This document shows, piece by piece, positions 2,899-40,048 of a stretch of DNA of 42,340 nucleotides (position 1 is its first letter; every line of letters begins with the position of its first letter). A program made the translations under genes and the position numbers. The notes below the pieces were generated by a model, which was not told the origin of the DNA, made no database searches, and saw nothing but the letters and a program-made list of their open reading frames with translations. The stretch covers positions 1 through 42,340 of IMG/VR virus record IMGVR_UViG_3300021493_000003; one strand, 5' to 3'. This DNA is from a virus.

Positions 2899-2959
2899 TG
2901 GAAATTGAGATTTTGGGTTAGAATAAAAAAAATAATTAATAAATTTAAGGAGAGGTTTA

Positions 2960-3190
2960 ATGGGACACTTGGAAGGTTTCCAAGTAATAAAGGTGAATCC
3001 TGCATACAGTTCCCTAAAGTGCCCTGTGTGCGGGTTCACTGATAAGGCGAATCGGGTAAGTGTTGAAGTGTTCCAGTGCGGTCAGTGTGGCTTTACGGGA
3101 AACGCTGACTGTGTGGGAGCATGGAACTTACTCGAAAGAGTAGCCGAGGAGCACTCCGTCCCTATATTAAGCCCAAAGGGGGTGGCTTAA
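2960..3190 (+). pseudogene. tnpB 3'-end fragment (zinc finger and RuvC-III only)
   Basis: The 76-residue frame is the C-terminal end of a TnpB nuclease, nearly identical to residues 271-344 of the intact TnpB at 15442. It has the CPVC and CGQC zinc pairs and the NADCVGAWNL RuvC-III segment but lacks RuvC-I, RuvC-II and the recognition lobe, so it cannot cut DNA. It begins exactly at an ATG preceded by AAGGAGAGG, which looks like the native start of another gene, so the fragment may be expressed as a small zinc-finger peptide. Its C-terminus reads SPKGVA instead of SQEVA, so it is not an exact copy of the other locus. Confidence 0.85.
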
Positions 3191-3197
3191 AACGGAA
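2961..3197 (+). repeat. long direct repeat, copy 1 of the tnpB 3' cassette
   Basis: 237 nt that match 16250-16483 with two substitutions (A/G near the start, C/T in GAGCAyTCCG) and a small length difference near the end that keeps the frame. Base composition is visibly richer in G+C than the surrounding sequence. The left edge carries an inverted repeat, CTTGGAA-GGT-TTCCAAG (2968-2984). Homology stops at AAAACGGAA (3197). Confidence 0.9.
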
Positions 3198-4211: not shown

Positions 4212-5996
4212 ATGGAAAGACCAATCGATTTTTTGAAAAGACAGAATTTGGATTTTAAAATAGAAGGCGAAGAAATAAGATTACATAAGTGTCCTTTCTG
4301 TGGTTCAGAAGGAAATCGTGCATTTGTCATTCATGCTACTACTGGCAAATGGCATTGTTTCGCATGTTTGGAAAGTGGTAGAAGTCTCTACAGTCTAAAG
4401 AAAAAGATGGGATTGATTGATCCCGTTGCTAAATTGTCTTCTGAAAAATTAAGACCTTTAGATAATAAATATTTGGAAAAAGTTACATTAGCACATAATA
4501 CGTTGATGAAAAATAGAAAATATTTAAGGGATTTAATAAAAAATTGGAAAATTTCATTGAATACTATAAGAAGACAAAGGTTGGGTGTTTTGGTTGAAAA
4601 TGAAGAAGTTAATGGTGAAATTTTACCAGTTCCAAAGAATTTAGTTATTCCATATTTTAAAAATGGAAGATTGTATAATATTAAATATAGAAGTTGGTTT
4701 GGATTACCGAAGACTTTTAGGCAAGTGAAAAATGCGCCTAAGGTAATGTACAATGAAGATGCATTGAAAGATATTTATGATACTGGAGAAGCAATTCTTT
4801 GTGAAGGGGAACATGATGCAATAACTTTAATTGATAAAGGATTAGGAAATGTATTGGGTATTCCTGGTGCAAGTGTTTTCCATCCAGAATGGTATGAAAA
4901 GTTTGAAGAATTAGAAAAAATTTATTTGGCACTTGATGCTGATAAAGCGGGTGAATTGGGAACAAAAAAATTGATTAGTAGATTAGGCATTCATCGTTGT
5001 TATATAATTCATTTGCCAGAAGGTTATGATGTATCTGATTATGTAAATGAATTTGGAATAGAAAGATTTAAATTATTATTGAAGGAAGCAACAAGAGCAG
5101 AACCTGAATCTGTTCATAGAATTGATAAAATAGCTGAAAATGAGATATTAACTGGTGAAATATCAGAAGATGTATTGCCAACATTTAGTAAGGAATTAAA
5201 TAGAATTTTAAATGGTGGTTTTAGGCCAGGCGAATTAATTACAGCAGTAGGTTACAGTAAGATCGGCAAAACGACTTTGTTTTTGAAAATTGCTACAGAA
5301 TTGGCTCGCCAGAATATTCCAACTATGTATTATTGTGTTGAAATGACAGCTACTAGATTGGCTAAATTAGCTTGGGGAATGTTACTGGATGTTGGTAGAG
5401 ATTTTCAATTTACAAGAGATTATGTGTTGATAAAACATTATTTAGATGAAAATCAAGTTCCTAGTCTTTATATTTGTGCACCAAGTAGTATAAAAAAACC
5501 TGAGCAAGTAGAAGAAACTATTAGGGATAGCATCTTGCGTTTTGGATTAAAATTGGTTATATTTGATAATATACATTATTTGGTAAGAACAGAGATTCAT
5601 AATAGAGTTCAAGTTATGGAAAGTTATATTAGAAAATTTAGAGATATCTCACGTGAATTGGAAGTTCCAATAGTTATAATTGCACATTTTGGTAAAGGTG
5701 ATCCTACTACAATACCGAAAGGAATGACGCCACAATGGGCTGCTAGTTTTTTATCAGATAGTGATACGGTTTTGCTAGCACATAGAAATAGAATTCCAGG
5801 TATTGAAGAGAGTTTTAGCAGAGTATTATATGTTTCAGTAGAAGCGGGTAGGGAGTCTCAAGGTGGGACTTGTTTTTTTGATTTGGATACTAATTTTCTT
5901 CAATTTAGGGAAATAACTAAGGAAGAAGCTATTAAATTAGAACAAATTTTTGAAAGTATGGGGGTAAAGGAAAAAGAAAAAAGGAGGAAAAAATGA
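4212..5996 (+). CDS. primase-helicase (T7 gp4-like)
   Basis: 594 residues with three modules in order. A CHC2-like zinc finger spans about 25-55 (C27, C30, H48, C49, C52). A TOPRIM domain follows, with CEGEHDA (E198) and the DAD-type motif ALDADKAG (D242, D244). From about 325 there is a RecA-fold DnaB-type helicase with Walker A GYSKIGKTT (347-355), the YYCVEM strand, a Walker B strand ending FDN, and the IIAHFGKG segment before an SDSDTV loop. In this family the zinc finger and TOPRIM lay down RNA primers while the hexameric helicase unwinds the fork 5' to 3'. The gene overlaps the following one by 4 nt. Confidence 0.92.
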   Translation: MERPIDFLKRQNLDFKIEGEEIRLHKCPFCGSEGNRAFVIHATTGKWHCFACLESGRSLYSLKKKMGLIDPVAKLSSEKLRPLDNKYLEKVTLAHNTLMKNRKYLRDLIKNWKISLNTIRRQRLGVLVENEEVNGEILPVPKNLVIPYFKNGRLYNIKYRSWFGLPKTFRQVKNAPKVMYNEDALKDIYDTGEAILCEGEHDAITLIDKGLGNVLGIPGASVFHPEWYEKFEELEKIYLALDADKAGELGTKKLISRLGIHRCYIIHLPEGYDVSDYVNEFGIERFKLLLKEATRAEPESVHRIDKIAENEILTGEISEDVLPTFSKELNRILNGGFRPGELITAVGYSKIGKTTLFLKIATELARQNIPTMYYCVEMTATRLAKLAWGMLLDVGRDFQFTRDYVLIKHYLDENQVPSLYICAPSSIKKPEQVEETIRDSILRFGLKLVIFDNIHYLVRTEIHNRVQVMESYIRKFRDISRELEVPIVIIAHFGKGDPTTIPKGMTPQWAASFLSDSDTVLLAHRNRIPGIEESFSRVLYVSVEAGRESQGGTCFFDLDTNFLQFREITKEEAIKLEQIFESMGVKEKEKRRKK

Positions 5997-12463: not shown

Positions 12464-12492
12464 TTGACAAATTGACTTTTTTATGTTATGCT
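12464..12492 (+). promoter_or_regulatory. late promoter upstream of the portal gene
   Basis: TTGACA at 12464-12469, 17-nt spacer, extended -10 TGT followed by TATGCT at 12487-12492. It shares the 13-nt core CTTGACAAATTGA (12463-12475) with promoters at 20856 and 38026. The predicted transcript starts close to 12499, about 16 nt before the portal GTG. It stands at the border between the replication and virion blocks and so probably drives the structural operon. Confidence 0.75.
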
Positions 12493-12514: not shown

Positions 12515-14035
12515 GTGAAGTTTGAGGTTTCGAGAAGACATCCAAATTATAAAAAAAAGAGAGATGAGTATGAGTTTTTCCTAAGAGCTTATTTGGGTGG
12601 TCGGGAGTTCATTGAGAGTGAGCTTTTTAGCCATTCTTTAGAAGATGATACTTCTTTTCAAAAGCGTAAAGAACGTGCTTCTTACATGAATATTACTAGA
12701 AAGGTTATTAATGCTTTTACTAATTTCATTTTTGCCACACCCGTGAAACGTTCCAATGCCGCTATTCTAGCTCCTTTCTTTGAAAATGCTGATAGAAAAG
12801 GCGATGATATCGATAAAATTATGCGCAAGGCTTCTAATTTATCTACTTTAATGGGACAATCTTATCTTTGGTTAAGATTTGACATTCCGCATAATATACA
12901 GGGATCATTAAGCTTAAAAGAAGTTTTGGAAAAAAGGATTTTGCCTTATGTAAATGTTTTATCTTATTTAGATGTAGTTGATTGGTCTTTAGATTCTTTT
13001 GGGAATTATAATTGGGCGTTGATAAGATTGCCTGAATATGATGATAAAGATCCTTTCAGGGAAAGGGATGAAAAAGTATATTATTACTTATTAACTAAGG
13101 AAAGAATCTATACTTTTGACGAAGAAGGGGATTTAGTTAGAACTGCAAATAATTCTTTGGGTGAAATCCCATTAATTAAAGTATTGCATGATGAAGTTGA
13201 TAGTTTGGGCGAAGGTGAGCCATTGTCAAATGATATGCCTTATTTGGCAAGAACTATTTTCAACTGGACTTCCATAATTGATGAAATGATAGAAAGACAG
13301 GGATTTGCCCAATTGGTTTGCCCTGATGATGGCGAATTGGAAGAAATGAATAGGGCAGAAGAAGGAAGTGTTTTAAGGAAGATTGGGACTTCTTCTGTTT
13401 TTACTTATCCAGCAAGCGCAGGCCACCCACCACAATTCATCACACCAGATATCAGTCAATTAAGAACAATTTGGACTATCATAAATGGTATGATAGATTT
13501 TATCTATTTAAGTACAGCCCTAGCTGGAACTAGGGAAGATATTGTAACGAATAGCAGTAGGGCAAGAAGAATTGCATTAGAATTAGTTGGTGCAACATTA
13601 AAAGCTAAAGTTATGCATTTGGAAGCTGCCGAAAATCGAATGATAGAACTTTACTTAAAGTATCTGAATAAGGAAAGACAAATTAATAAAAGATATTTTA
13701 GTAGCTATTGTAGAGATGTCAACGCATTAAGTTTTATGGACTACTTTGATAGTATATTTGAAATGATGAAAAAGAATATTAGCAGAACTTTCAATAAGGC
13801 ATTGGCTATAGAATTAACCGAAAATTGTCCCTACCCAATGGTTCAAAAATTTCGTGATGGAATTATTAGGGAAATACAAGATTCGGCTGGTATATTATTC
13901 GGCCAGGCACGTGATATTTATGATTTTACAGCTAGTGAAGAAGAAATAAAAAAGAGCAAGCCGAAGAAGCAAGCAAAAAAACCTAAAGAAGAAGAAAAAG
14001 AGGGGGAAAAAGAAGAAGAGAAGGAAGAAAAATAA
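12515..14035 (+). CDS. portal protein
   Basis: 506 residues, GTG start behind a GGGGTG ribosome site. The N-terminus (HPNYKKKRDEYEFFLRAYLGG) and the segment RASYMNITRKVINAFTNFIFATPV match the start of SPP1 gp6/DUF4055-type portals, and the middle has the long helical stem region. The last 40 residues are a Lys/Glu tail of low complexity. Portals form the dodecameric ring through which DNA enters the head. The next gene is a scaffold-like coiled coil, the usual order. No terminase gene is visible upstream, so packaging genes lie outside this window. Confidence 0.8.
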   Translation: MKFEVSRRHPNYKKKRDEYEFFLRAYLGGREFIESELFSHSLEDDTSFQKRKERASYMNITRKVINAFTNFIFATPVKRSNAAILAPFFENADRKGDDIDKIMRKASNLSTLMGQSYLWLRFDIPHNIQGSLSLKEVLEKRILPYVNVLSYLDVVDWSLDSFGNYNWALIRLPEYDDKDPFRERDEKVYYYLLTKERIYTFDEEGDLVRTANNSLGEIPLIKVLHDEVDSLGEGEPLSNDMPYLARTIFNWTSIIDEMIERQGFAQLVCPDDGELEEMNRAEEGSVLRKIGTSSVFTYPASAGHPPQFITPDISQLRTIWTIINGMIDFIYLSTALAGTREDIVTNSSRARRIALELVGATLKAKVMHLEAAENRMIELYLKYLNKERQINKRYFSSYCRDVNALSFMDYFDSIFEMMKKNISRTFNKALAIELTENCPYPMVQKFRDGIIREIQDSAGILFGQARDIYDFTASEEEIKKSKPKKQAKKPKEEEKEGEKEEEKEEK

Positions 14036-15205: not shown

Positions 15206-15417
15206 TAAATTTTGTTGTTTTAATGGAAAAGGATGGAATTGCGAGATATTATAGGCGATTAGATGAGAATGAAATTTTATTTGAAATTTATAAAGATGGT
15301 GATTTAGAAGTTTGTCATAGAATTAGTGCTAAGTTTCTAGCTCCAGAAATATTGAATTCTTTATTTTTAGCGCCAAAAAGTATTATTTTTTTGGAAAATG
15401 AAAAAGAGAAAAGTTAA
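15202..15417 (+). CDS. hypothetical small protein
   Basis: 71 residues from a GTG that overlaps the preceding stop (GTGA), so translation is probably coupled; an internal ATG at 15223 is the alternative start. Small alpha/beta pattern with a central DENEILFEIYKDGDLEV strand pair. It bears a faint resemblance to the 52-residue frame at 16524 (DENG-IFIF, then H-R and a basic helix), which lies on the other side of tnpB. The pair could be paralogues or halves of a duplicated gene. Unknown function. Confidence 0.45.
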   Translation: MINFVVLMEKDGIARYYRRLDENEILFEIYKDGDLEVCHRISAKFLAPEILNSLFLAPKSIIFLENEKEKS

Positions 15418-15441: not shown

Positions 15442-16476
15442 ATGATCAAATCTTGTAAATTGAAAATTTATGCAAATAAAGGTAAAATTAAAGAATTAAA
15501 TAAACTGCTTGCATTTTGGCAAGATCAAGTTAATCATAAAATAAAATTATTTTGGGATTTTGAAGATATAAAAGGTTCATATCCACCTAAAGAATATTGC
15601 CGAGGTGGAAGATTAATTAGAGACGCTTCGGTAAAAGCTTGGCAAATAATAAAGGGAGCAAAAAGGAATAAACAAAAAAAAAGGCCTTATTTTAAAGGAA
15701 AAGAAATAGATTTGAACCAATTTAGTGCTTATATTATTCCTGAACTTAAAACAAAAGAATTTGATATTTGGTTTTCGATTATCAATCTAAATTTAAGACA
15801 TAGATTAAAAATACCTTGCAAAAAAGCAAGTTTATTTAATAAAATGTTAAAAAAGGGGAGATTAAGAAAGAGTTTTAAATTATTAAAAATCAATAATGAT
15901 TATTATATGCAATGCTTTATAGAACTTCCAGAAAAGAAAAAACAAAACAATAATAAGATTGGTATTGATGTAGGTTTAAATAATGCAATTGCTACTTCTG
16001 ATGGAAGAATTTTAGGCAAAGAATTAAAAGATTTGAGAATCAGAACTAAATGGAGAAGTTATAAGAGAAAATTATCGCCACAGAAACAATTATTAAATTA
16101 TTATGCAAAATTATTAGTGAAACTTTATCCTAATACTGATTTTGTAGTCGAGAGATTATTATTTAAAGGCAAAAAAAATCGTACAAAGGAATTTAGAAGA
16201 CGCAACAATACTTGGCCATATATGCACTTAGCAAATAAATTAGAGGAATTGGGACGCTTGGAAGGTTTCCAAGTAATAAAGGTGAATCCTGCATACAGTT
16301 CCCTAAAGTGCCCTGTGTGCGGGTTCACTGATAAGGCGAATCGGGTAAGTGTTGAAGTGTTCCAGTGCGGTCAGTGTGGCTTTACGGGAAACGCTGACTG
16401 TGTGGGAGCATGGAACTTACTCGAAAGAGTAGCCGAGGAGCATTCCGTCCCTATATTAAGCCAGGAGGTGGCTTAA
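15442..16476 (+). CDS. tnpB: TnpB RNA-guided nuclease (IS200/IS605 type)
   Basis: 344 residues, on the small side for TnpB. The RuvC triad is complete: D176 in GIDVGL, E237 in VVERLLF, D319 in NADCVGAWN. The zinc finger has C290, C293, C309 and C312. The N-terminal wedge/REC part is basic, as expected for RNA binding. In this family the protein is guided by an omega RNA made from the 3' end of its own gene and cuts target DNA. No tnpA is nearby, so it would depend on a TnpA in trans or be a domesticated or homing-like nuclease. The last 234 nt differ in composition from the rest and recur at 2961. Confidence 0.95.
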   Translation: MIKSCKLKIYANKGKIKELNKLLAFWQDQVNHKIKLFWDFEDIKGSYPPKEYCRGGRLIRDASVKAWQIIKGAKRNKQKKRPYFKGKEIDLNQFSAYIIPELKTKEFDIWFSIINLNLRHRLKIPCKKASLFNKMLKKGRLRKSFKLLKINNDYYMQCFIELPEKKKQNNNKIGIDVGLNNAIATSDGRILGKELKDLRIRTKWRSYKRKLSPQKQLLNYYAKLLVKLYPNTDFVVERLLFKGKKNRTKEFRRRNNTWPYMHLANKLEELGRLEGFQVIKVNPAYSSLKCPVCGFTDKANRVSVEVFQCGQCGFTGNADCVGAWNLLERVAEEHSVPILSQEVA

Positions 16477-16483
16477 AACGGAA
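16250..16483 (+). repeat. long direct repeat, copy 2 of the tnpB 3' cassette
   Basis: 234 nt matching 2961-3197. The left edge coincides with the point where tnpB shifts from A+T-rich to balanced composition, and with the inverted repeat CTTGGAA-GGT-TTCCAAG at 16257-16273. Homology with copy 1 stops at 16483, seven nucleotides after the tnpB stop codon. Confidence 0.9.
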
Positions 16484-16540
16484 CTGCTATGTTCCAAGGG
16501 TCGAATTTGCTTGACCGTCGGGAATGTCGAATAGCCAATC
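16300..16540 (+). ncRNA. putative omega RNA / right end of the tnpB element
   Basis: In the IS200/IS605 family the guide scaffold overlaps the tnpB 3' end and runs into the right end of the element. Here the composition stays balanced past the stop codon, and the untranslated part folds locally: GGAAC/GTTCC around a 6-nt loop (16480-16495) and GGTC/GACC (16499-16516). The right boundary of the element is not visible by eye; limits given are approximate. A guide would lie just past that boundary, somewhere around 16535-16560. Confidence 0.4.
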
Positions 16541-16682
16541 TACAATAAGAAGAAGAGGGTTTAGTGTTGGCATAGATGAAAACGGAATTTTTATTTTTAC
16601 ACACAGGTGCAGAAGCAAATCATATTCTTCTTATAAAAAGATTCCTAAAAAAGTAAGAGATTTTATCAAAAGTACAGCTTAG
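16524..16682 (+). CDS. 52-residue ORF downstream of tnpB, possibly a gene remnant
   Basis: An ATG-started frame of 52 codons with a weak ribosome site (GGGA), ending TAG at 16680-16682. The product is basic, with a DENGIFIF strand and a final KKIPKKVRDFIKS helix. The first codons may be part of the tnpB right end and the rest the 3' part of a gene that the element entered. It has some likeness to the 71-residue protein at 15202. Treat it as a possible small or broken gene. Confidence 0.35.
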   Translation: MSNSQSTIRRRGFSVGIDENGIFIFTHRCRSKSYSSYKKIPKKVRDFIKSTA

Positions 16683-16702
16683 TTTTTTTTATTTTTTAAA
16701 AC

Positions 16703-16761
16703 GTCCCATTCTATAATCCAAGTCGGATTACCAGAATGGGACGGATTCGTGTCTTTAAACG
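16703..16761 (+). promoter_or_regulatory. nested hairpin element, copy 1
   Basis: Outer stem GTCCCATTCT/AGAATGGGAC (16703-16712 with 16733-16742), inner stem TAATCC/GGATTA (16714-16719 with 16725-16730) around loop AAGTC, then a conserved tail GGATTCGTGTCTTTAAAC. It recurs at 38932 with pairing kept. Here it stands about 30 nt upstream of the AGGAGG site of the 138-residue gene. Confidence 0.7.
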
Positions 16762-16792
16762 AAGTTTATAATAAAATTTTAGGAGGTTTATT

Positions 16793-17209
16793 ATGTTTGA
16801 TAAATTATTTAAAACTTATGAGAAATTATTACTTTATCGTCCTTGGGTTTATTATTGGAAAGTTACTTATGCTAATGGTAAAAGTATAGCGCAATTTGAT
16901 GAAAATGGAAATGAAATATTATATGGTAATGTTTCTAAGAAAGATGCATTAATTATTGGTTGGTATCCATTTGATGTTAAATTAGCTAGGAAGTTATTAG
17001 ATAAAGGTTTATTAGTATTGCCAAAACAAATTCCAAGTCATGAAATTATTTTGGAAAAGGGTGAAGAACCAATAATTTTTAGGCGTAATTATATTGCTTT
17101 GGGTGCAAATGGTGGGAGAAGAATTAAATATATATTGGGCAAAAAACATAAGTTCTTATGGATAATTGATGAAAACGGTAATAAAGAGATAAAGAAATTA
17201 ACTGATTAA
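16793..17209 (+). CDS. hypothetical protein, first gene of the fibre cassette
   Basis: 138 residues preceded by TTTTAGGAGG. It has an aromatic N-terminus (LLLYRPWVYYWKVTY) followed by repeated short strands with DENGN turns at both ends (QFDENGNEIL, IIDENGNKEI), which suggests a small all-beta virion protein. It ends 19 nt before the large DUF2341 protein and follows the conserved hairpin element, so it is probably a partner or adaptor of the fibre. No known family recognised. Confidence 0.5.
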   Translation: MFDKLFKTYEKLLLYRPWVYYWKVTYANGKSIAQFDENGNEILYGNVSKKDALIIGWYPFDVKLARKLLDKGLLVLPKQIPSHEIILEKGEEPIIFRRNYIALGANGGRRIKYILGKKHKFLWIIDENGNKEIKKLTD

Positions 17210-17228: not shown

Positions 17229-20200
17229 TTGTCATATTTATCCGATTGGCAATATAGAAAAAAGATAACCATCCAAGGCCAATCTGGTGCTGGAACTGAC
17301 TATCAAGTACTATTAAAAGTAGGAGAAAGTTCTGGTGCTTCAGGATATGATTTTCACGTAGAAGGACATTCATCTAATTTTCCAAGCGATACTAATCAAT
17401 CTGGCGATTTACGTTTTACTAAAAGCGATGGAACTACTTTATTAAATTTTTGGGTAGAAAAAGTAGAAGGTACATCACCTAATCGTGTAGCATATTGCTG
17501 GATAAAAATTACAGATAATCTTGATAGCAATGTAGATATTTACTGCTACTATGGAAATTCCAATGCAGGTAATGTGAGTTCGGTTACTAATACATTTATA
17601 AGGGAAATAAGCAATCTTAAGGGTGCTTGGCATTGTGATGAAAATTCTGGAGATACAGTTGAAGATTCATCGGGAAATAATCACGATGGGACAAAACATG
17701 GTGCAACTTGGACTGATGGGAAATTTGGCAACGCCTTAAATTTTGATGGGAACGATTATGTAGATTTAGGAGACATTTTAGATGATGTATTCGCTGGAGC
17801 AGATAAGAAATTTAGCTTTTCTGTATGGGTGAAACCATCTGCTCAAATGACAAATAATCATATTATAGTCAAGCTTGCCGATTCTGGTTGTTCAGAAGAT
17901 CAAAGACAATTTGTATTTAGATTACTTACTGACAGTAAGCCTGAATTTATGTATTATTGTGGTCTTAGTACATTTAATTACAGAGGTATTTTAGGTTCGA
18001 CTCCAATAACTGATTTAAATAAGTGGTATCATCTTATTGTAACTTATGATGGTTCTATCGATACAAATAATGGATTGGATAGAGTTAAAATATATGTTGA
18101 TGGGCAAGCAGAATCTACTACTTTAGATTATAGTGGCGGTAGTCTTGGTGATATTCAAAATGGAACAGCACATCTTGGATTCGGTGTGTACTTAAATTCA
18201 TCAGGAAGTCCTTGCGGAAGTGCATATTTCAATGGTATTATGGATGAAATTTTTATTTTTGATAAAGTTTTGACTGCCGAAGAAGTTTCAGATTTATATA
18301 ACAATTATGGTTATACAACGACAAGTTATTCAGGAAAAGTATTAGTTCGTAAGCGTGTCGATCCAGAACCATCCTTTTCTTCATCTTCTTTAGAGGAAGA
18401 ATCTTTTAAATTATACGATATTGATATATGCATTTTAGAACATAAATTATCTTGCAATTATTCCGTTGATATATGTGTAGCTAAGCAAGGTTGGCTTCCC
18501 TATAATTTTAGAAGACAAATAACTATAGATAATACGTCAAATTCCAATAATCTTATAGATTATCAAGTAAAAATAATTTTAAATTCTGATAATTTCAATT
18601 TTAATCATGCTAAAGATGATGGAAGTGACATTGCATTTGCCGATTCCAATGGAACTTCTGTATTGTACCACTGGAAGGAAAAATGGGATAAAAATAATCA
18701 AGAAGCCATTCTTTGGGTAAAAGTACCTTCTATTCCAGCTTCTTCCACAAAAACTATTTATCTCTATTATGGTAATTCAGAAGCCGAAGATAGCAGCGAT
18801 GGTGATAATACATTTGATTTTTTTGATGATTTTATCGATACGATAGATACAAATAAATGGAATATAAAAGGAAATTCTGATAATCTTGATATTAGTAATA
18901 GTGTTTTGGATATTTATATTTCGGAACATACAGGAGATGGAAATTGTATATCCAATGGTATAGTTTCTAAAACTTATACTATAGAAACTGGACATATTTT
19001 AGAAGCATTGGTTAAAGGAGATAGTCAAAGAAGAAATTATTGGGTTTTTGTAGGTGCTAATGATAATGAAGGAGCTATTTGGGGAAGTACTTCAAAACAG
19101 ACATTTTGTTTTTATCAAAATACTGAAGATGATACTATAGCAAATTCTTGGGCAACAGATAGACAATATACTTGTATAACAATTGATTATTCGAATTGGC
19201 ATAGGTATAGAATTGATTATATTGACACAAATACACTCAAATTTTACATTGATGATGATTTGAAAGCAACTCATACTGGAACAGCAGTTCCAGACGCTTC
19301 AAGGAAATTGGAGCTTGGTGGTGATGATTATAGTAACACAAATTATCATGTAAAATGTGATTGGATAAGAGTTAGGAAATATACTGATCCAGTACCAAGT
19401 TCAACAATTGGAAGTGAACAAACTGTAAAAGAAATTAATTATTCTATAGATGCAATATTTACTGCATTAAAACAGGATATTTCTATTGATTTATTGCTAC
19501 AGAAATTACAATCTCTTAATTATGATTGTGATGTTATAATAAAAACGATTGAGAAAATTTACAATATTGATACTTTGCTACAGAAGATTAAATTTTTCAA
19601 TTACAATGTTGATACATTAATAGAGAAAATAATTAACCAATATTACAATGTTAATGTTTTGTTGGAATCATTAAAATCTTCTACTTATATTTTGGATATA
19701 TTAATTAAAAAATTAAAATATATTAATTATAATTTGGATATTTTGTTACAAAAGTTTAGTTCTATTAATTATAATATTGATTTAATAATTGAAGAAATAA
19801 CTAAGAAAAGTTACAGTGCTAATGTTTTATTAAAAGCACTTAAACAAGAATCTTATATTTCAGATGTTTTATTGCAAAAGTTTAATTCTATCAATTATGA
19901 TGCTGATTTAATCTTAAATAAAATTGGACAATCGCAATATTCTATAGATTTAATATTACAAACGGAAGAAGGGAAATCCGAATATAATTTTGATGTTTTT
20001 TTAAAAGGAATTTTAAATCTCAATTATCAATCTGATGTTTTATTGAAACTATTGAAATTAATCGATTATGATATAGATGTTCCTTTAGAAAAATTGCAAT
20101 CTTTTGTTTATGATATCAATGCAATACTTAATAAATTAGAATCAATTACTTATGATAATGATATTTTATTAGAACAATTACAGTCTTTTAATTATGATAT

Positions 20201-20495
20201 TGATATATTATTAAAACAATTGTCATCTTCTATTTATGACATTAATGTATTATTTAGACAATTACAAACTCTTATTTATAATATAGATGTAATAATCAAG
20301 ATAATTGAAAAACAAATTTCTATTGATGTTATATTATCGGAAATAAATGAATTCAAATATTCAATAGATGTTTCATTATTTCAGAAATTAAGATTCGCAC
20401 CATGTAAGTTGATTTTAGATTATAATAAATATAATCTTAATTTAGATTTCCAATGTAATAAATTTAATTTAGACTTCGCCTGTCAGGAGGAATAA
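17229..20495 (+). CDS. fibre/adhesin: DUF2341, LamG, DUF2341, ConA-like, 14-residue repeats
   Basis: 1088 residues, TTG start behind GGAAGGGG. Domains in order: DUF2341 (1-120, WQYRKKITI...CYYGN), LamG-type lectin (about 130-360, GAWHCDEN...FNGIMDEIFIFD), a linker, a second DUF2341 (about 415-515), a second ConA-like domain (520-735) closing with VRKYTDPVPSS, and 23 tandem copies of a 14-residue unit (738-1057). DUF2341 and LamG modules occur in surface proteins that bind polysaccharide, so host-surface recognition is likely. No signal peptide is seen, so it is a virion protein. The gene lies between scaffold and capsid genes, far from the other fibre gene at 41487, with which it shares its N-terminal domain. 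Confidence 0.8.
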   Translation: MSYLSDWQYRKKITIQGQSGAGTDYQVLLKVGESSGASGYDFHVEGHSSNFPSDTNQSGDLRFTKSDGTTLLNFWVEKVEGTSPNRVAYCWIKITDNLDSNVDIYCYYGNSNAGNVSSVTNTFIREISNLKGAWHCDENSGDTVEDSSGNNHDGTKHGATWTDGKFGNALNFDGNDYVDLGDILDDVFAGADKKFSFSVWVKPSAQMTNNHIIVKLADSGCSEDQRQFVFRLLTDSKPEFMYYCGLSTFNYRGILGSTPITDLNKWYHLIVTYDGSIDTNNGLDRVKIYVDGQAESTTLDYSGGSLGDIQNGTAHLGFGVYLNSSGSPCGSAYFNGIMDEIFIFDKVLTAEEVSDLYNNYGYTTTSYSGKVLVRKRVDPEPSFSSSSLEEESFKLYDIDICILEHKLSCNYSVDICVAKQGWLPYNFRRQITIDNTSNSNNLIDYQVKIILNSDNFNFNHAKDDGSDIAFADSNGTSVLYHWKEKWDKNNQEAILWVKVPSIPASSTKTIYLYYGNSEAEDSSDGDNTFDFFDDFIDTIDTNKWNIKGNSDNLDISNSVLDIYISEHTGDGNCISNGIVSKTYTIETGHILEALVKGDSQRRNYWVFVGANDNEGAIWGSTSKQTFCFYQNTEDDTIANSWATDRQYTCITIDYSNWHRYRIDYIDTNTLKFYIDDDLKATHTGTAVPDASRKLELGGDDYSNTNYHVKCDWIRVRKYTDPVPSSTIGSEQTVKEINYSIDAIFTALKQDISIDLLLQKLQSLNYDCDVIIKTIEKIYNIDTLLQKIKFFNYNVDTLIEKIINQYYNVNVLLESLKSSTYILDILIKKLKYINYNLDILLQKFSSINYNIDLIIEEITKKSYSANVLLKALKQESYISDVLLQKFNSINYDADLILNKIGQSQYSIDLILQTEEGKSEYNFDVFLKGILNLNYQSDVLLKLLKLIDYDIDVPLEKLQSFVYDINAILNKLESITYDNDILLEQLQSFNYDIDILLKQLSSSIYDINVLFRQLQTLIYNIDVIIKIIEKQISIDVILSEINEFKYSIDVSLFQKLRFAPCKLILDYNKYNLNLDFQCNKFNLDFACQEE
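19440..20399 (+). repeat. 23-copy 42-bp coding repeat (14-residue unit)
   Basis: The unit reads approximately Y-N-I-D-x-L-L-x-K-L-x-S-x-N. Copies are 13-15 residues long, most exactly 14. Tyr1 and Asp4 (or Asn4) are the most constant; positions 6, 7 and 10 are aliphatic. The same unit recurs in the protein at 39368. Confidence 0.85.
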
Positions 20496-22566: not shown

Positions 22567-23556
22567 ATGGCAGAACAGACTGAATTCACTCAAGTCTTAA
22601 AATCTAAAGGTTATGAAATCTTTTTTAGGGAATATGAAGAAGAAGCTCCTGTTTGGCCACTTCTATTTGAAGAAGAAGATTGCCCCGATGCATATGTGAT
22701 GAGCCATACAATGGTAGGATTGGATGAACTTATTGAAAAGAAGCCAGGCGAACCTATCAAATATGATACACCTGAAGAAGGTTGGCTATTAATAGGTAAA
22801 ATTAGAACATTTGCACGTGGTATGCGCTGGAATTATGAAACTCATAGGAGTATGGAAGCAATTGCAAAGTTGTTCAGCTCTACCATTAAGGAATGGTCTA
22901 GGGCCGCTGCTAGAACAAAGGAATCTTTCTATTCCAAATTCTTTGTTTATGGTGCTTTAACAGCTGGGCATGATATATTTGATAATAGCGTAGGCGATAT
23001 CGTTGATCCTAGTGGTAAATTCATATATGATGGCAAGCCATTTATGGCCGATAGTGGAAATGAACATCCATTGAAATCTGCTACAGTTGCTGGTTGTGGT
23101 CAGAATTATTTAGGTGCTACTAAAGATTATTCTTTAAGTAATTTAGAAGCAGCTTATACAAAGATGGTAGTTGATAATGCATATAATGATAGGGGTAATC
23201 CTATTACAATAAGACCAGATACAGTTTTATGCCATCCTTCTATAGCACATGATATTAAAGCTGATATTTCCAGCGAATATTATCCAGCAAAAACTTCAAG
23301 CGCTTCTAAGAAGAACCCATTTTACAATATGTTTGGAGTTCTCCCTTGGAATAGGATTCCAAAGGTCAGCACACATTTTCCTTGGGCATTATTACAGAGA
23401 GGCCGTGGTTTGGTAGCATTGTCAGGTGAAGAAGTAGTGATAGATGTATGGCAGGACAAGGAAAACAAAGAAATTAAGGCCAGCGTAATGGTTTTGTTTG
23501 GCGGTTACGTGAAAGATTGGCGCTACACAATGGGCGCTTGCTTTGCTAAATCATAA
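22567..23556 (+). CDS. major capsid protein (HK97 fold)
   Basis: 329 residues, strong TGGAGG site. The pattern fits HK97-fold capsid proteins without a delta domain: an N-arm, an E-loop-like region (GEPIKYDTPEEGWLLIGKIRTF), a spine helix with many charged residues (RSMEAIAKLFSSTIKEWSRAAARTK is the type of segment), and a P-domain/A-domain end with PDTVLCHPSIAHDI and an FGGYVKDWRY strand near the C-terminus. It would form the icosahedral shell. The end of the gene is somewhat richer in G+C than the start, next to the homing endonuclease. A hairpin follows the stop codon. Confidence 0.8.
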   Translation: MAEQTEFTQVLKSKGYEIFFREYEEEAPVWPLLFEEEDCPDAYVMSHTMVGLDELIEKKPGEPIKYDTPEEGWLLIGKIRTFARGMRWNYETHRSMEAIAKLFSSTIKEWSRAAARTKESFYSKFFVYGALTAGHDIFDNSVGDIVDPSGKFIYDGKPFMADSGNEHPLKSATVAGCGQNYLGATKDYSLSNLEAAYTKMVVDNAYNDRGNPITIRPDTVLCHPSIAHDIKADISSEYYPAKTSSASKKNPFYNMFGVLPWNRIPKVSTHFPWALLQRGRGLVALSGEEVVIDVWQDKENKEIKASVMVLFGGYVKDWRYTMGACFAKS

Positions 23557-23563
23557 TATATAA

Positions 23564-23590
23564 TGTAAAGGCCCTTAATGGGCCTTTACA
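23564..23590 (+). terminator. 11-bp hairpin after the capsid gene, overlapping a -35 box
   Basis: TGTAAAGGCCC/GGGCCTTTACA with a TTAAT loop, no mismatch. A T run (TTTTTT) begins about 8 nt after the stem, so termination is possible but not classical. The 3' arm contains the TTTACA -35 box of the next promoter. Confidence 0.6.
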
Positions 23591-23619: not shown

Positions 23620-25179
23620 ATGAAATGTCCAATTTGTGGTGCTAAAAAGAAAAGTAAATATTCTAAAACTTGTGGAAAAAAGCAATGTGTAGCTGAATAT
23701 ATTAGAAGACATTTTTTGAAAAAATATGGCGTTGAAAATCCATCACAATCTGAAGCTATAAAAGAAAAAAGGAAGCAGGTTTTTTTAAAGAAATATGGTG
23801 TTGAAAATCCATTTCAGCTTGATTCTATAAGGCAAAAAGCTAAACAAACTTTATTGGAAAGATATGGTGTTGATAATGCTTTAAAATCTGATTCAATTAA
23901 GGAAAAAGTAAGAAAGACTTGCTTATTGAAATATGGAACTGAAAGCCCACTTCAGAATGAGCGGATTAAAGAAAAAGTTAGACAAACTAATTTGAAAAGG
24001 TATGGCGTTCCACATGCTCTCCAGAATGAAAAAATAAAAGAAAAGCTCAAGAAAACTTTATTAAAAAAGTATGGCGTTGATAATATATCGAAATTAAAAG
24101 TTATTAGTGAAATTAAGCGATTTAAAGAAACGGAAAAATTTTTACCTAAACTTAAAGAATATTGTGATAAAAATGATTTGATTTTTTTATCGGAAAATTA
24201 TAATGGTGTTTGGAAAGATAAAAATCAATGTATAGCTAATAAATATAAATTTAAATGCAAAAAATGTGGTTATGAATTTGAATCTACATTAAGAAGCATT
24301 ATTAGATGTCCAAGATGCTCAGGTTCTAATGAAGAAAAAGAGCTTATTAATTTTTTGGAAGAAAACAATAATAAAATAGTTGTTCATGATCGCTCAATTC
24401 TAGATGGGAAAGAATTAGATATTTTTATTCCAGATAAAAATTTGGCTATTGAATTGAATGGTTTGTTTTGGCATTCGGAATTAAATGGAAATAAAGATAG
24501 AAACTATCATTTAAATAAAACAATATTGTGTGAACAGAAAGGAATTCGCTTAATTCAGATTTTTGAAGATGAATGGTTATTTAAGAAAGATATTGTGAAA
24601 AGTATTTTGCTTGCTAAACTTGGATTATTAAAAAATAAAATATATGCTAGAACTTGCAATATAAAAAATTTAAGTTATAATGAAGTTAAGGAATTTTTGC
24701 AGGAAAATCATCTTCAAGCTGATATTAAAGCTAAATTAAATATTGGTTTATTTAGTAATAATGAATTGATTTCATTGCTTTGTTTAGGAAAACCTAGATT
24801 TAATAAAAATTATGAATGGGAAATTTTAAGATTTTGTAATAAAAATTATTACTTAGTTATTGGCGCATTTTCTAAGTTATTAAATTACTTTATTGAAAAT
24901 TATAATCCCAAATCCATTATTTCCTATGTTGATAGGAGATATGGAACTGGACATTCACTAAAGAAATTGGGATTTAAGTTGATTGGAACTTCAAAACCAA
25001 ATTATTTTTATATTAAAGTTGGTGAATTTATTAGATATCCAAGGGAAAATTTCCAAAAACATAAGTTAGCTAAGCGTTTGGAAAAATTTGATGAAAATAA
25101 ATCTGAATGGATTAATATGATAGAAAATGGATATGATAGGATTTGGGATTGTGGAAATTTTATTTATGTTTTAACTTAG
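23620..25179 (+). CDS. freestanding homing endonuclease (KYGV repeats, Vsr-like nuclease)
   Basis: 519 residues. A zinc knuckle (C3, C6, C18, C23), then six copies of a 23-residue repeat of the form KKYGVxNPxQSxxIKEKxKxT (34-171), which are DNA-reading modules of phage homing endonucleases, a second zinc finger (CKKC...CPRC, about 215-240), and a PD-(D/E)XK/Vsr-like nuclease (ELDIFIPDKNLAIELNG, then H and IRLIQIFEDEW). A C-terminal domain of unknown role follows. It sits between capsid and connector genes. Such genes spread by cutting phages that lack them at a conserved site near the insertion, so the target is probably in the capsid or connector region. Confidence 0.87.
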   Translation: MKCPICGAKKKSKYSKTCGKKQCVAEYIRRHFLKKYGVENPSQSEAIKEKRKQVFLKKYGVENPFQLDSIRQKAKQTLLERYGVDNALKSDSIKEKVRKTCLLKYGTESPLQNERIKEKVRQTNLKRYGVPHALQNEKIKEKLKKTLLKKYGVDNISKLKVISEIKRFKETEKFLPKLKEYCDKNDLIFLSENYNGVWKDKNQCIANKYKFKCKKCGYEFESTLRSIIRCPRCSGSNEEKELINFLEENNNKIVVHDRSILDGKELDIFIPDKNLAIELNGLFWHSELNGNKDRNYHLNKTILCEQKGIRLIQIFEDEWLFKKDIVKSILLAKLGLLKNKIYARTCNIKNLSYNEVKEFLQENHLQADIKAKLNIGLFSNNELISLLCLGKPRFNKNYEWEILRFCNKNYYLVIGAFSKLLNYFIENYNPKSIISYVDRRYGTGHSLKKLGFKLIGTSKPNYFYIKVGEFIRYPRENFQKHKLAKRLEKFDENKSEWINMIENGYDRIWDCGNFIYVLT

Positions 25180-30519: not shown

Positions 30520-30520
30520 T

Positions 30521-30578
30521 ATATGCCTTGCGGGCCATTTTTATGGCGGCTTTTAGCCAACATGAAGGTCGGGCATAT
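30521..30578 (+). other. three-way-junction-like RNA structure
   Basis: ATATGCC/GGCATAT (30521-30527 with 30572-30578) closes a junction with two hairpins, GCCAT-TTTT-ATGGC (30534-30547) and GGCT-TTT-AGCC (30548-30558), and a 13-nt single-stranded part. The whole region is untranslated. It is strong for an A+T-rich genome. Confidence 0.5.
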
Positions 30579-30580
30579 AA

Positions 30581-30610
30581 TTAAGGGCCAGTTTTTTAAC
30601 TGGCCCTTAA
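30581..30610 (+). terminator. 13-bp hairpin, possible terminator or processing site
   Basis: TTAAGGGCCAGTT/AACTGGCCCTTAA with a TTTT loop. It is followed by A residues rather than T, so it is not a classical intrinsic terminator; it may mark an RNA end by processing or limit read-through from the tube genes into the chaperone. Confidence 0.5.
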
Positions 30611-38025: not shown

Positions 38026-38054
38026 TTGACAAATTGAATATGGCATGTTACAAT
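38026..38054 (+). promoter_or_regulatory. promoter of the HNH endonuclease with the shared 13-nt core
   Basis: TTGACA at 38026-38031, 17-nt spacer, TGT plus TACAAT at 38049-38054. Core CTTGACAAATTGA at 38025-38037. Transcription should start near 38061; the gene has a strong AAAGGAGG site and starts at 38093. Confidence 0.75.
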
Positions 38055-38092: not shown

Positions 38093-38818
38093 ATGATTTG
38101 CCCAAATTGTAATTCAACTAAAGTAGTAAAAGATGGGCAAACTCCACAGGGAAAAAGACGGTTTAGATGTAGAAGTTGTTCTTATCGATGGGTTGAAAAT
38201 GCATCATGTATTAAACCACGTTGGGAAATTAGTGATATAGAAAAATTGAAGAGTTTATATTTGGATGAAAAATTGCATATAGATAAAATTGCAAAAAAGC
38301 TCGGTAGGACTCGTTTATCAGTGGAAAGTCAAATTCACGAATTAAATCTACATCGACCTAATAGAATAGATATAGATAGAACAATAAAAAAAATTTGCCC
38401 AATTTGTGGAAAGGAATTTCTTGTTGGTGGAAAAACACGTCGTCATAAAAATATAACTTATTGTTCTGCTCAGTGTGCTAACATTGCAAAACGAAAAGAT
38501 ACTGGATTTAGAGCTTGGTTTAGATTTGCCGAAAAAGTCAAAGAGCGTGATAATTATCAGTGTGTAATTTGCAAAAGAAAAAGATCAGATAGATATATAA
38601 TACAGGCACATCATATTGTTCCAAAGAAATGGACAAAGCCTAGTGAATTTAAAGGTGAAGAAAAGTTAAGTGATTGTATAACAGTATGTGTTCAATGTCA
38701 TAGGGATTTAGAACGGCTAACTAAAGCAGCTATGCAACATAAACCCGACTTCAACATCTGGAACTTATTAGAAGCACTTATTGATTCCGAAACATTAAAT
38801 AGAATAAAGAATTCATAA
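38093..38818 (+). CDS. HNH homing endonuclease (zinc ribbon + HTH + HNH)
   Basis: 241 residues. An N-terminal zinc ribbon (C3, C6, C26, C29 with GKRRFRCRSC) like those of transposases, a helix-turn-helix stretch (LYLDEKLHIDKIAKKLGRTRLSVESQI), a second Cys pair (CPICGK ... YCSAQC), and a C-terminal HNH nuclease (YQCVICKRKRS... AHHIVPKKW ... VCVQCHRDLE). Freestanding HNH genes of this kind nick or cut a site in the phage genome and spread by repair. It has its own promoter and is followed by structured RNA. Its target is probably near the G+C-rich patch upstream or the tail genes downstream. Confidence 0.88.
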   Translation: MICPNCNSTKVVKDGQTPQGKRRFRCRSCSYRWVENASCIKPRWEISDIEKLKSLYLDEKLHIDKIAKKLGRTRLSVESQIHELNLHRPNRIDIDRTIKKICPICGKEFLVGGKTRRHKNITYCSAQCANIAKRKDTGFRAWFRFAEKVKERDNYQCVICKRKRSDRYIIQAHHIVPKKWTKPSEFKGEEKLSDCITVCVQCHRDLERLTKAAMQHKPDFNIWNLLEALIDSETLNRIKNS

Positions 38819-38827
38819 TATTGCTAT

Positions 38828-38926
38828 TTTTGCCCTTGAAGGCAAAAGCCCTTCTTGGGCAGGGCCTTGTAAACTTGCCCTTAAATCAGGAGGGATGGAT
38901 TTCCCCCACTGATGAAAAGTTTACAA
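38828..38926 (+). other. structured RNA region after the HNH gene
   Basis: Several perfect stems in series: TTTTGCC/GGCAAAA (38828-38847), GCCC/GGGC (38848-38860), then two mutually exclusive pairings, AGGGC/GCCCT (38861-38881) or TTGTAAACTT/AAGTTTACAA (38867-38876 with 38917-38926), and an inner stem TCAG/CTGA plus GGGA/TCCC (38886-38912). The second, longer pairing uses the loop of the first, so it could be a switch or pseudoknot. The first hairpins may also work as a terminator. Confidence 0.5.
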
Positions 38927-38931
38927 TTTCA

Positions 38932-38989
38932 GTCCCGTTCTATAATCCAAGTCGGGTTATTAGAATGGGACGGATTATTGTCTTTAAAC
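38932..38989 (+). promoter_or_regulatory. nested hairpin element, copy 2
   Basis: GTCCCGTTCT/AGAATGGGAC (38932-38941 with 38962-38971), inner stem TAATCC/GGGTTA around the same loop AAGTC, and tail GGATTATTGTCTTTAAAC. Changes against copy 1 inside the stems replace A-U by G-U, which keeps the pairing. The tail ends 1 nt before the ATG at 38991 and no Shine-Dalgarno is present. Confidence 0.7.
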
Positions 38990-38990
38990 A

Positions 38991-39368
38991 ATGGTAAAAA
39001 TTGATACAATAGAATTACCAGACCTAATTTGGGTAGATGAATTTGATTATCTATCCATATCTTCTTCCAAAGATAGAACTTTGGGATATAATGCCTTAGT
39101 CTGGTCTTCTAAAAATAAATTCCAAAGAAATATTACATTGCAGGGTGATGAAAATAAGGCTTGGCTAACAAGGAAACAAGTAAAGGAATTGGAAAAATTG
39201 GCTTCTATTCCAGATGCTATTTTTGATTTTGAATATAATGGGAAAAAATATAAAGTTAGATTTAGGCATGAAGATGTTCCAATTGAAGTATATCCAATTT
39301 TGCCAAGAACTAATCCAGATGATGAAGATTATTATTATGGAACTATAAGATTACAAGAGGTTAGCTAA
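38991..39368 (+). CDS. tail protein with WLTRKQV domain
   Basis: 125 residues. A beta-rich N-terminus, then the block AWLTRKQVKELEKLASIP, YNGKKYKVRFRHEDVP and ILPRTNPDDEDYYYGTIRL, which is also found in the next protein. This is a paralogous pair of tail-tip or adaptor proteins. The start codon follows the hairpin element directly and lacks a ribosome site; an in-frame TAA just upstream excludes a longer form. It overlaps the next ATG by 1 nt. Confidence 0.6.
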   Translation: MVKIDTIELPDLIWVDEFDYLSISSSKDRTLGYNALVWSSKNKFQRNITLQGDENKAWLTRKQVKELEKLASIPDAIFDFEYNGKKYKVRFRHEDVPIEVYPILPRTNPDDEDYYYGTIRLQEVS

Positions 39369-40048
39369 TGGCTCAGAATTACAATATAGATTCATTATTA
39401 CGAGAATTAGAGAATCAAAATTATAATATTAATATATTATTACAAAAATTACTTAATGGAAATTACAATATAGATTCATTATTACAAGGATTAGTAAATA
39501 AAGACTATAATATAGACTTATTAATTCAAGAACTAGATTTATCTGCATTATTTACTTTAGATTTATTAATACAACAATTAAATATTTCTTTTGATTATTT
39601 GATTAATGCTTTATTTCAAGCTAAAAAATCATATTCATATAATCTTGAAATTTCATTATTTGATATTAATTATGTCTTTTTTGATGGTATGAAGTTGCAA
39701 TTAGTTTGGAATGATGAATTTAATAATTCAGAAATAGACGCAGTTAAGCGGTTGGCCTTAGCGCAAAATTATAATATACAAGAATTTAATGTATGTGAAA
39801 AACCAATTACTTTAGAAGCTACGGAAAATCAAGGTTGGTTGACAAGAAAACAGGTAGAAATGCTTTATGAAAAAGCATCAGTTCCGAATAAGATATATCC
39901 ATTGATATATAATGGGAAACATTATTTAGTTAGATTTAGGTGGGAAGATCCACCAGTTATTGACGTAACACCTATTTTGCCAAGGCCAAATATGGCAGAT
40001 GATGATTATTATTATGGGACGATAAAATTAATGCAAATATTAAGATAG
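39368..40048 (+). CDS. tail protein with 14-residue repeats and WLTRKQV domain
   Basis: 226 residues. Residues 5-102 hold about seven copies of the 14-residue unit also present in the big fibre at 17229 (YNIDSLLRELENQN, YNINILLQKLLNGN). After a short stretch the second half (about 108-226) is a paralogue of the preceding protein: TLEATENQGWLTRKQVEML, YNGKHYLVRFRWEDPP, ILPRPNMADDDYYYGTIKL. The repeats thus link to a tail domain here and to lectin-like domains in the fibre, so they may mediate contact between the two proteins. Start overlaps the previous stop. Confidence 0.6.
   Translation: MAQNYNIDSLLRELENQNYNINILLQKLLNGNYNIDSLLQGLVNKDYNIDLLIQELDLSALFTLDLLIQQLNISFDYLINALFQAKKSYSYNLEISLFDINYVFFDGMKLQLVWNDEFNNSEIDAVKRLALAQNYNIQEFNVCEKPITLEATENQGWLTRKQVEMLYEKASVPNKIYPLIYNGKHYLVRFRWEDPPVIDVTPILPRPNMADDDYYYGTIKLMQILR
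39380..39673 (+). repeat. seven-copy 42-bp coding repeat
   Basis: Same 14-residue unit as at 19440. Copies 1 and 3 are nearly identical in DNA over some 25 nt (at 39374 and 39458), which points to recent duplication within the array. Confidence 0.75.

Follow-up and report, generated by a model that had tools for sequence, protein, structure and literature searches.

The virus record IMGVR_UViG_3300021493_000003, analysed over its positions 1 to 42,340 and referred to here as the window, contains a 57-nt element in two copies (16703-16760 and 38932-38989), a two-copy repeat designated repeat family D6. These hairpin-forming sequences raise the question of whether they are a structured RNA acting on fibre genes or the ends of a mobile element. 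Discussions of how phages set the dosage of their structural genes mostly concern promoters and ribosome sites, and a conserved hairpin found only before two fibre blocks would offer a simple means of setting fibre number after transcription. A repeat located beside TnpB and HNH genes also resembles a mobile end, but comparison with relatives says otherwise.

Each copy is composed, in order, of a 10-bp outer stem, a 1x2 internal loop, a 6-bp inner stem, the loop AAGTC and the tail GGATTNNTGTCTTTAAAC (Table 1). An initial reading of the nucleotides, here called the sequence-only reading, had described two copies sharing the stems, the loop and an 18-nt tail ending TCTTTAAAC, all of which is directly visible in the sequence. 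It had also stated that differences between the copies leave the structure intact. This is correct for both stem positions concerned (38937 A>G and 38956 A>G), where A-U and U-A pairs are converted to G-U and U-G. The predicted structure is strong on the + strand: 65-nt stretches containing the element gave fold z-scores of -6.1 (copy 1) and -5.7 (copy 2), and none of 200 shuffles was as stable.

Table 1. Positions in the window of the two hairpin copies, their parts, and neighbouring genes and signals.
Feature	Position	Strand	Remarks
Promoter-like site TTGACAAATTGA, 17-nt spacer, TG	12464..12492	+	about 4.2 kb before copy 1
Portal-like protein	12515-14035		named from appearance only; no Pfam match
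TnpB (Cas12f1-like TNB domain)	15442..16476	+	in an insertion ending upstream of copy 1; separate from the element
Copy 1, nested hairpin	16703..16742	+	
Copy 1, outer arms	16703-16712 / 16733-16742
Copy 1, inner arms	16714-16719 / 16725-16730		1x2 internal loop between the stems
Copy 1, loop	16720-16724
Copy 1, conserved tail GGATTCGTGTCTTTAAAC	16743..16760	+
138-aa gene directly after copy 1	16793..17209	+	SD AGGAGG (by eye); matches neither Pfam nor PHROG
1088-aa fibre-like protein after copy 1	17229..20495	+	DUF2341, Laminin_G_3 (lectin-like), 42-nt repeats
Capsid-like protein	22567-23556		named from appearance only; weak phrog_133 match
HNH endonuclease gene upstream of copy 2	38093..38818	+	differs between phages; separate from the element
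Copy 2, nested hairpin	38932..38971	+	G-U pairs from 38937 and 38956
Copy 2, outer arms	38932-38941 / 38962-38971
Copy 2, inner arms	38943-38948 / 38954-38959
Copy 2, loop	38949-38953
Copy 2, conserved tail GGATTATTGTCTTTAAAC	38972..38989	+
125-aa protein directly after copy 2	38991..39368	+	phrog_4408
226-aa repeat protein, second gene after copy 2	39368..40048	+	C-terminal phrog_4408 match

Viral contigs were searched for relatives with a pattern scan and by protein similarity, and bacterial and archaeal genomes were scanned once. Eight further copies came from five related phage records, again at these two loci, giving ten copies in six records of a small group of uncultured phages, with six copies at locus 1 and four at locus 2. 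The relatives carrying the element are G001 (52 kb), G002 (47 kb), contig C341 of G006 (121 kb) and the fragments L005 and L008/L011. C341 (JAOZMT010000001.1, 121447 bases) is a large phage contig that encodes a 3368-aa DUF2341 protein and is filed in a Victivallales MAG. It may be misbinned, and thus the MAG does not name the host.

A covariance model search, as suggested in the sequence-only reading, was carried out with a model (R1) built from the ten copies. The sequences searched with it were the window, the complete G001, G002 and C341, and the fragments. Exactly two full copies each were recovered in the window, G001, G002 and C341, and one in every element-bearing fragment; the remaining matches were opposite-strand shadows of the same sites or had E-values of 0.29 and weaker. 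Among the sequences searched, only the two orthologous loci in close relatives matched, and both stems, whose preservation in further copies had been predicted, are kept in all ten. The 5.3-kb fragment L029, which carries a gene related to the one at 12515, gave no match and stops short of locus 1. Under stricter filters, R1 detected only G006 itself among 288 genomes of the phylum of G006. Named phages gave no blastn match to a 63-nt query, Rfam gave none at either copy at the gathering score or up to E 10, and none of the titles and abstract openings covered in the literature describes the element. We regard the element as lineage-specific and new; its kind, a cis-acting phage mRNA hairpin, is already known.

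Candidates for more distant copies obtained with loose patterns (L009, L048, L052, L053, L081, L082 and L083) lack the outer stem by inspection and were rejected. In a small search R1 scored L081 at E 0.015 and L082/L083 at E 0.071, all of them loci preselected by the tail pattern. An unrelated phage, L007, harbors an identical 17-nt inner hairpin enclosed by another stem, which R1 scores at noise level (17.1 bits, E 0.85). It is located at 5680-5745 within a different, long intergenic stem, and the neighbouring genes are on the other strand. This match may reflect chance or convergence.

The ten copies were also analysed for the preservation of pairing. On the + (mRNA-sense) strand standard pairs are present in all 160 cells (16 pairs in each of ten copies), whereas on the - strand 9 of the 160 do not pair. 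The stems underwent six distinct changes (columns 6, 16, 17, 24, 25 and 40), all of them transitions and all pair-keeping in mRNA sense, including one double change that converts the C-G pair 16-24 to U-A in G002 copy 2. If only transitions and independent events are assumed, we estimate the chance of six out of six changes keeping pairing on one strand at about 1 in 64. A covariation count, in which the identical rows G001_c2 and G006_c2 were taken as one, was not significant because the sequences are so alike; the observed value was reached by 132 of 500 shuffles. Variable columns amount to 6 of 32 within the stems and 7 of 25 outside them (loop 1/5, tail 4/17). The loop had been considered invariant, which holds for AAGTC in the two window copies but not for G002, where both copies read AAGTT. 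The same inner-stem and loop changes are present in both copies of G002. A second small hairpin predicted inside the window tail is by inspection impossible in G002 and in copy 1 of G006, and a pseudoknot between loop and tail was judged by eye to be weak and was dropped.

Divergence of the 57 nt of copy 1 between phages is 4-11%, versus 7-50% at the four-fold sites of the next gene, and was lower in 15 of 15 comparisons. Relative to all sites of the 138-aa gene (6-12%) it is sometimes not lower, for example 7% versus 6% between the window and L005. For copy 2 the values in three phages are 3/57 versus 9%, 3/57 versus 5% and 0/57 versus 6%, and no clear slowing relative to four-fold sites is seen at this locus. 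No open frame runs through all ten copies: frame 1 is stopped in G002_c2, frame 2 in G001_c1 and frame 3 in all copies. A short frame starting at an ATG in the 3' arm (MG.I.V.K) ends after 8-11 codons in nine copies and reads through into the next gene in G002 copy 1; only one of its variable columns (40, 42, 46, 47 and 53) is at codon position 3. Pairing was kept while the sequences drifted, which suggests that the hairpin is functional within the mRNA and probably a working part of it.

The sequence-only reading had offered the end of a mobile element as an alternative. In this case the hairpin would be an IS200/IS605-type end or a homing target folded as single-stranded DNA, a form in which G-T pairs are also tolerated, and the window does contain a TnpB gene upstream of copy 1 and a nuclease gene upstream of copy 2. 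The borders do not agree with this. Alignments with G001 and G006 stop at 15362 and 15437 and restart at 16515 and 16521, respectively, which places the end of the TnpB insertion well short of 16703. In G001, L005 and L008/L011 the insertion site is spanned by relatives of an 81-aa protein of G006, and all of these phages keep the hairpin. At copy 2, G002 carries a different nuclease gene and G006 just a short remnant, and the hairpin is again retained; it occurs at all ten loci examined, with or without nucleases. Y1 transposase had no match in G000, G001 and G002, virus records that may be fragments, and four matches in G006, none of them on C341. The mobile-end proposal was not borne out by these comparisons and is the least probable of the readings considered here. 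Two related candidates were rejected. The right end of TnpB or its omega-RNA was dismissed because the insertion terminates upstream of the hairpin; a homing endonuclease unit received no support, as R1 matched at none of 20 loci with HNH relatives (mostly partial, 27-60% identical) and G006 retains just the HNH-end remnant together with the hairpin.

Upstream of copy 2, G002 (locus L037) encodes a nuclease-like protein whose C-terminal end matches the HNH protein of the window while the rest differs; judging from the sequences, this looks like the replacement of one homing-type nuclease by another. The window itself has about 107 nt of nested hairpins between the HNH stop codon and copy 2 (38819-38925), which by inspection are absent in G001, G002 and G006.

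The window is part of a phage: all ORFs of more than 170 aa are located on the + strand, among them one for a tape-measure-type protein at 31628. The proposal of a structured RNA before fibre-like genes is supported by the second gene downstream of the hairpin, which encodes DUF2341 behind copy 1 in the window and behind copy 2 in G006, as well as by the kept pairing and the slow divergence of copy 1. A second tail/fibre cassette had been assigned to the region after copy 2. In G006 the counterpart of the 226-aa protein has 532 aa with an N-terminal DUF2341; in the window the second gene after copy 2 encodes the shorter repeat protein without that N-terminal part. Relatives of the 125-aa protein were detected in 36 named phage records, and for 4 of the 20 records listed the matching region overlaps a gene annotated as tape measure. 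For the 81-aa protein of G006 and the 329-aa protein at 22567, tblastn against named phages gave no match. Copy 2 ends 1 nt before the ATG at 38991, and this ATG lacks a Shine-Dalgarno sequence by inspection, both as had been noted before. In G002 the phrog_4408 gene starts 730 nt past the tail, with an extra 231-aa frame between, and has no Shine-Dalgarno sequence there either. The missing Shine-Dalgarno sequence therefore belongs to the downstream gene and not to the hairpin.

Exact TTGACAAATTGA sites with a promoter-like second box are present at 12464, 20856 and 38026 but not at the hairpins, and thus copy 1 appears to be intra-operonic, lying midway along a transcript. The scan lists a single terminator-like site on the + strand in the interval from 12464 to copy 1, a 5-pair stem inside tnpB. 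The site at 38026 precedes the HNH gene, which places copy 2 of the window likewise downstream of a promoter-like site. The hairpin itself could contain a promoter, with TATAAT in the 5' arm as the -10 box and the palindrome as operator, or with TTTAAA of the tail as the -35 box. TATAAT is invariant in all ten copies; at a spacing of 15 nt copy 2 of the window has TTTACA (5/6) and two other second copies reach 4/6, and the scan lists TTTAAA-16-TACAAT at 38983-39010 (9/12). At 16-18 nt from TATAAT, however, no copy exceeds three of six matches to TTGACA, and none of the ten has a TG before TATAAT, yet the phage has TTGACA-type sites elsewhere. Furthermore, every asymmetry is compatible with G-U pairing on one strand, a property not required of an operator. 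A promoter or operator is accordingly very unlikely. A transcription terminator or attenuator between gene blocks would suit a strong G+C-containing hairpin behind the last gene of a block, but the stem is not followed by a T-run (the sequence there is GGATTNNTGTCT, or GAATTNNTGTCT in one copy), and the terminator scans list neither hairpin though they list others such as 23564-23590. We regard this function as improbable; a factor-dependent terminator is possible.

A cis-acting RNA element fits the position between blocks, the pairing on one strand and the missing terminator and promoter features. It also fits the retention of the hairpin while flanking genes were inserted, swapped or lost. 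Our preferred, tentative interpretation is an mRNA processing or stability site, a cis-acting hairpin in two long transcripts that would set off the fibre mRNA (probability roughly 0.4). The hairpin lies between the last gene of one block and the first gene of the next block, in which the fibre-like protein is encoded, and would be transcribed from upstream promoters within a polycistronic mRNA. Hairpins inside phage transcripts are well known to function in mRNA processing, T7 being an example. Its double-stranded stem could be cut by an RNase III-like enzyme or serve as a barrier. Processing would provide the fibre block with its own mRNA with a defined and protected 5' end, and fibre dosage might thereby be separated from that of the upstream genes. 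Phage mRNA sites of the RNase III type are irregular hairpins of about 11-20 bp between genes of a polycistronic transcript. The element shares this layout, with 16 pairs, a 1x2 internal loop and an intergenic position among genes on one strand, presumably within a polycistronic transcript. RNase III itself (PF14622) was not found in G000-G002, and the one match in G006 is on contig C56 and not on the phage contig. Against the processing site, only two sites are present per phage despite many intergenic gaps, and the loop and tail are conserved beyond what a plain processing stem would seem to require, which hints at a specific partner.

Such a partner could be an RNA-binding protein of phage or host origin, acting as translational repressor, activator or antiterminator, that binds the leader and coordinates both fibre operons in trans, with the loop AAGTY and the tail TGTCTNTAAA as contact points. 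This is the main rival and ranks next after processing, at a clearly lower probability. It would explain why each large record has exactly two copies, why both copies in G006 precede DUF2341 blocks (for copy 1, the scan used the window version of the protein), and why so few columns vary in the loop and tail. The parallel inner-stem and loop changes of G002 suit a shared partner or gene conversion. No candidate protein is present among the families named here, and the geometry of the start region also argues against this rival. The stem lies at a variable distance (19-50 nt) from the next start codon, and in 10/10 predicted folds of hairpin and start region the stems are self-paired and leave the Shine-Dalgarno sequence and AUG uncovered, a result that also counts in favour of the processing site. 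Unpaired probabilities of the start codons are 0.26-0.84 in the folding; their partial pairing is with other sequence, most of it downstream. A further, more doubtful proposal is a two-site RNA regulon, in which a trans-acting phage factor would read loop and tail and jointly set the dose or timing of the fibre operons, and loop changes would spread in concert as in G002.

The apparent concerted change in G002 also suits a module-border sequence, that is, a homologous hairpin at which fibre cassettes and nuclease genes recombine and whose copies are kept alike by gene conversion. Gene content indeed shifts right at copy 2, where the upstream position is occupied by HNH, by another nuclease with the same C-terminal end or by a remnant, and where G002 has the extra 231-aa frame downstream. 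Recombination at a border leaves unexplained that all stem changes keep pairing on one strand, and we consider this reading unlikely.

The element was compared with known phage hairpins. In T7, folding gives a long stem a short distance ahead of gene 1.3, whereas the other T7 stretch has smaller stems located more than 60 nt before gene 1.1. Only one of the two folded stretches is alike, and thus the likeness to T7 is loose and restricted to layout. The T7 record does not label these hairpins, which we take to be the RNase III sites. Compared with such sites the element is unrelated in sequence, has two sites only and a conserved 3' tail, and its cleavage is a proposal. The polycistronic mRNA of T7 is processed by RNase III and cut between genes (PMC4858673).

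In Cluster K mycobacteriophages, PMC3203893 describes the extended start-associated sequence (ESAS) as an imperfect inverted repeat of about 17 bp just upstream of the start-associated sequence (SAS); the ESAS is kept at orthologous genes and its function is given as unknown. The SAS is the 13-bp GGGATAGGAGCCC, found at translation starts in 11-19 copies per genome, and the ESAS spacer is 4-13 bp (PMC3203893). The element resembles the ESAS as an inverted repeat upstream of a conserved sequence near starts that is kept at orthologous genes. It differs in its tail, which by inspection is not GGGATAGGAGCCC, in having two copies and in a spacer of 5 in all ten. Hairpins upstream of starts are also described, in PMC3014915 and PMC2988022, for the T4 gene 43 operator and, proximal to the RBS, for homing endonuclease genes of T4-like phages. 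In seg43(25) of Aeromonas phage 25 a stable predicted hairpin lies just upstream of the RBS and leaves it uncovered (PMC2988022). The element shares with the gene 43 operator and seg43(25), as described there, the location of the hairpin upstream of a start, but its downstream genes encode neither a polymerase nor a nuclease, and no autoregulating partner was identified. The ESAS and the hairpin of Aeromonas phage 25 are close to the element in layout.

Further nuclease genes and hairpins were observed elsewhere in these phages. Positions 2904-3193 of the window harbor a 3' fragment of tnpB (222 nt, 97% identical to 16250-16471) with the apparent right end of the TnpB element. The fragment is missing from the same place in G001 and G002 and looks, from this comparison, like a non-autonomous TnpB-derived insertion. 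After the gene at 22567, a nuclease gene of the DUF7487/MTES_1575 type is located at 23620-25179; counterparts in G001 and G002 align at the corresponding position, where G006 lacks the gene. For this nuclease type G002 is represented by L046 (reverse strand, about 15581-17028), and a further related copy lies in G002 at the gap matching window position 30520. The hairpin at 30525-30582 is absent at the same gap in G001 and lies beside two hairpins common to both phages.
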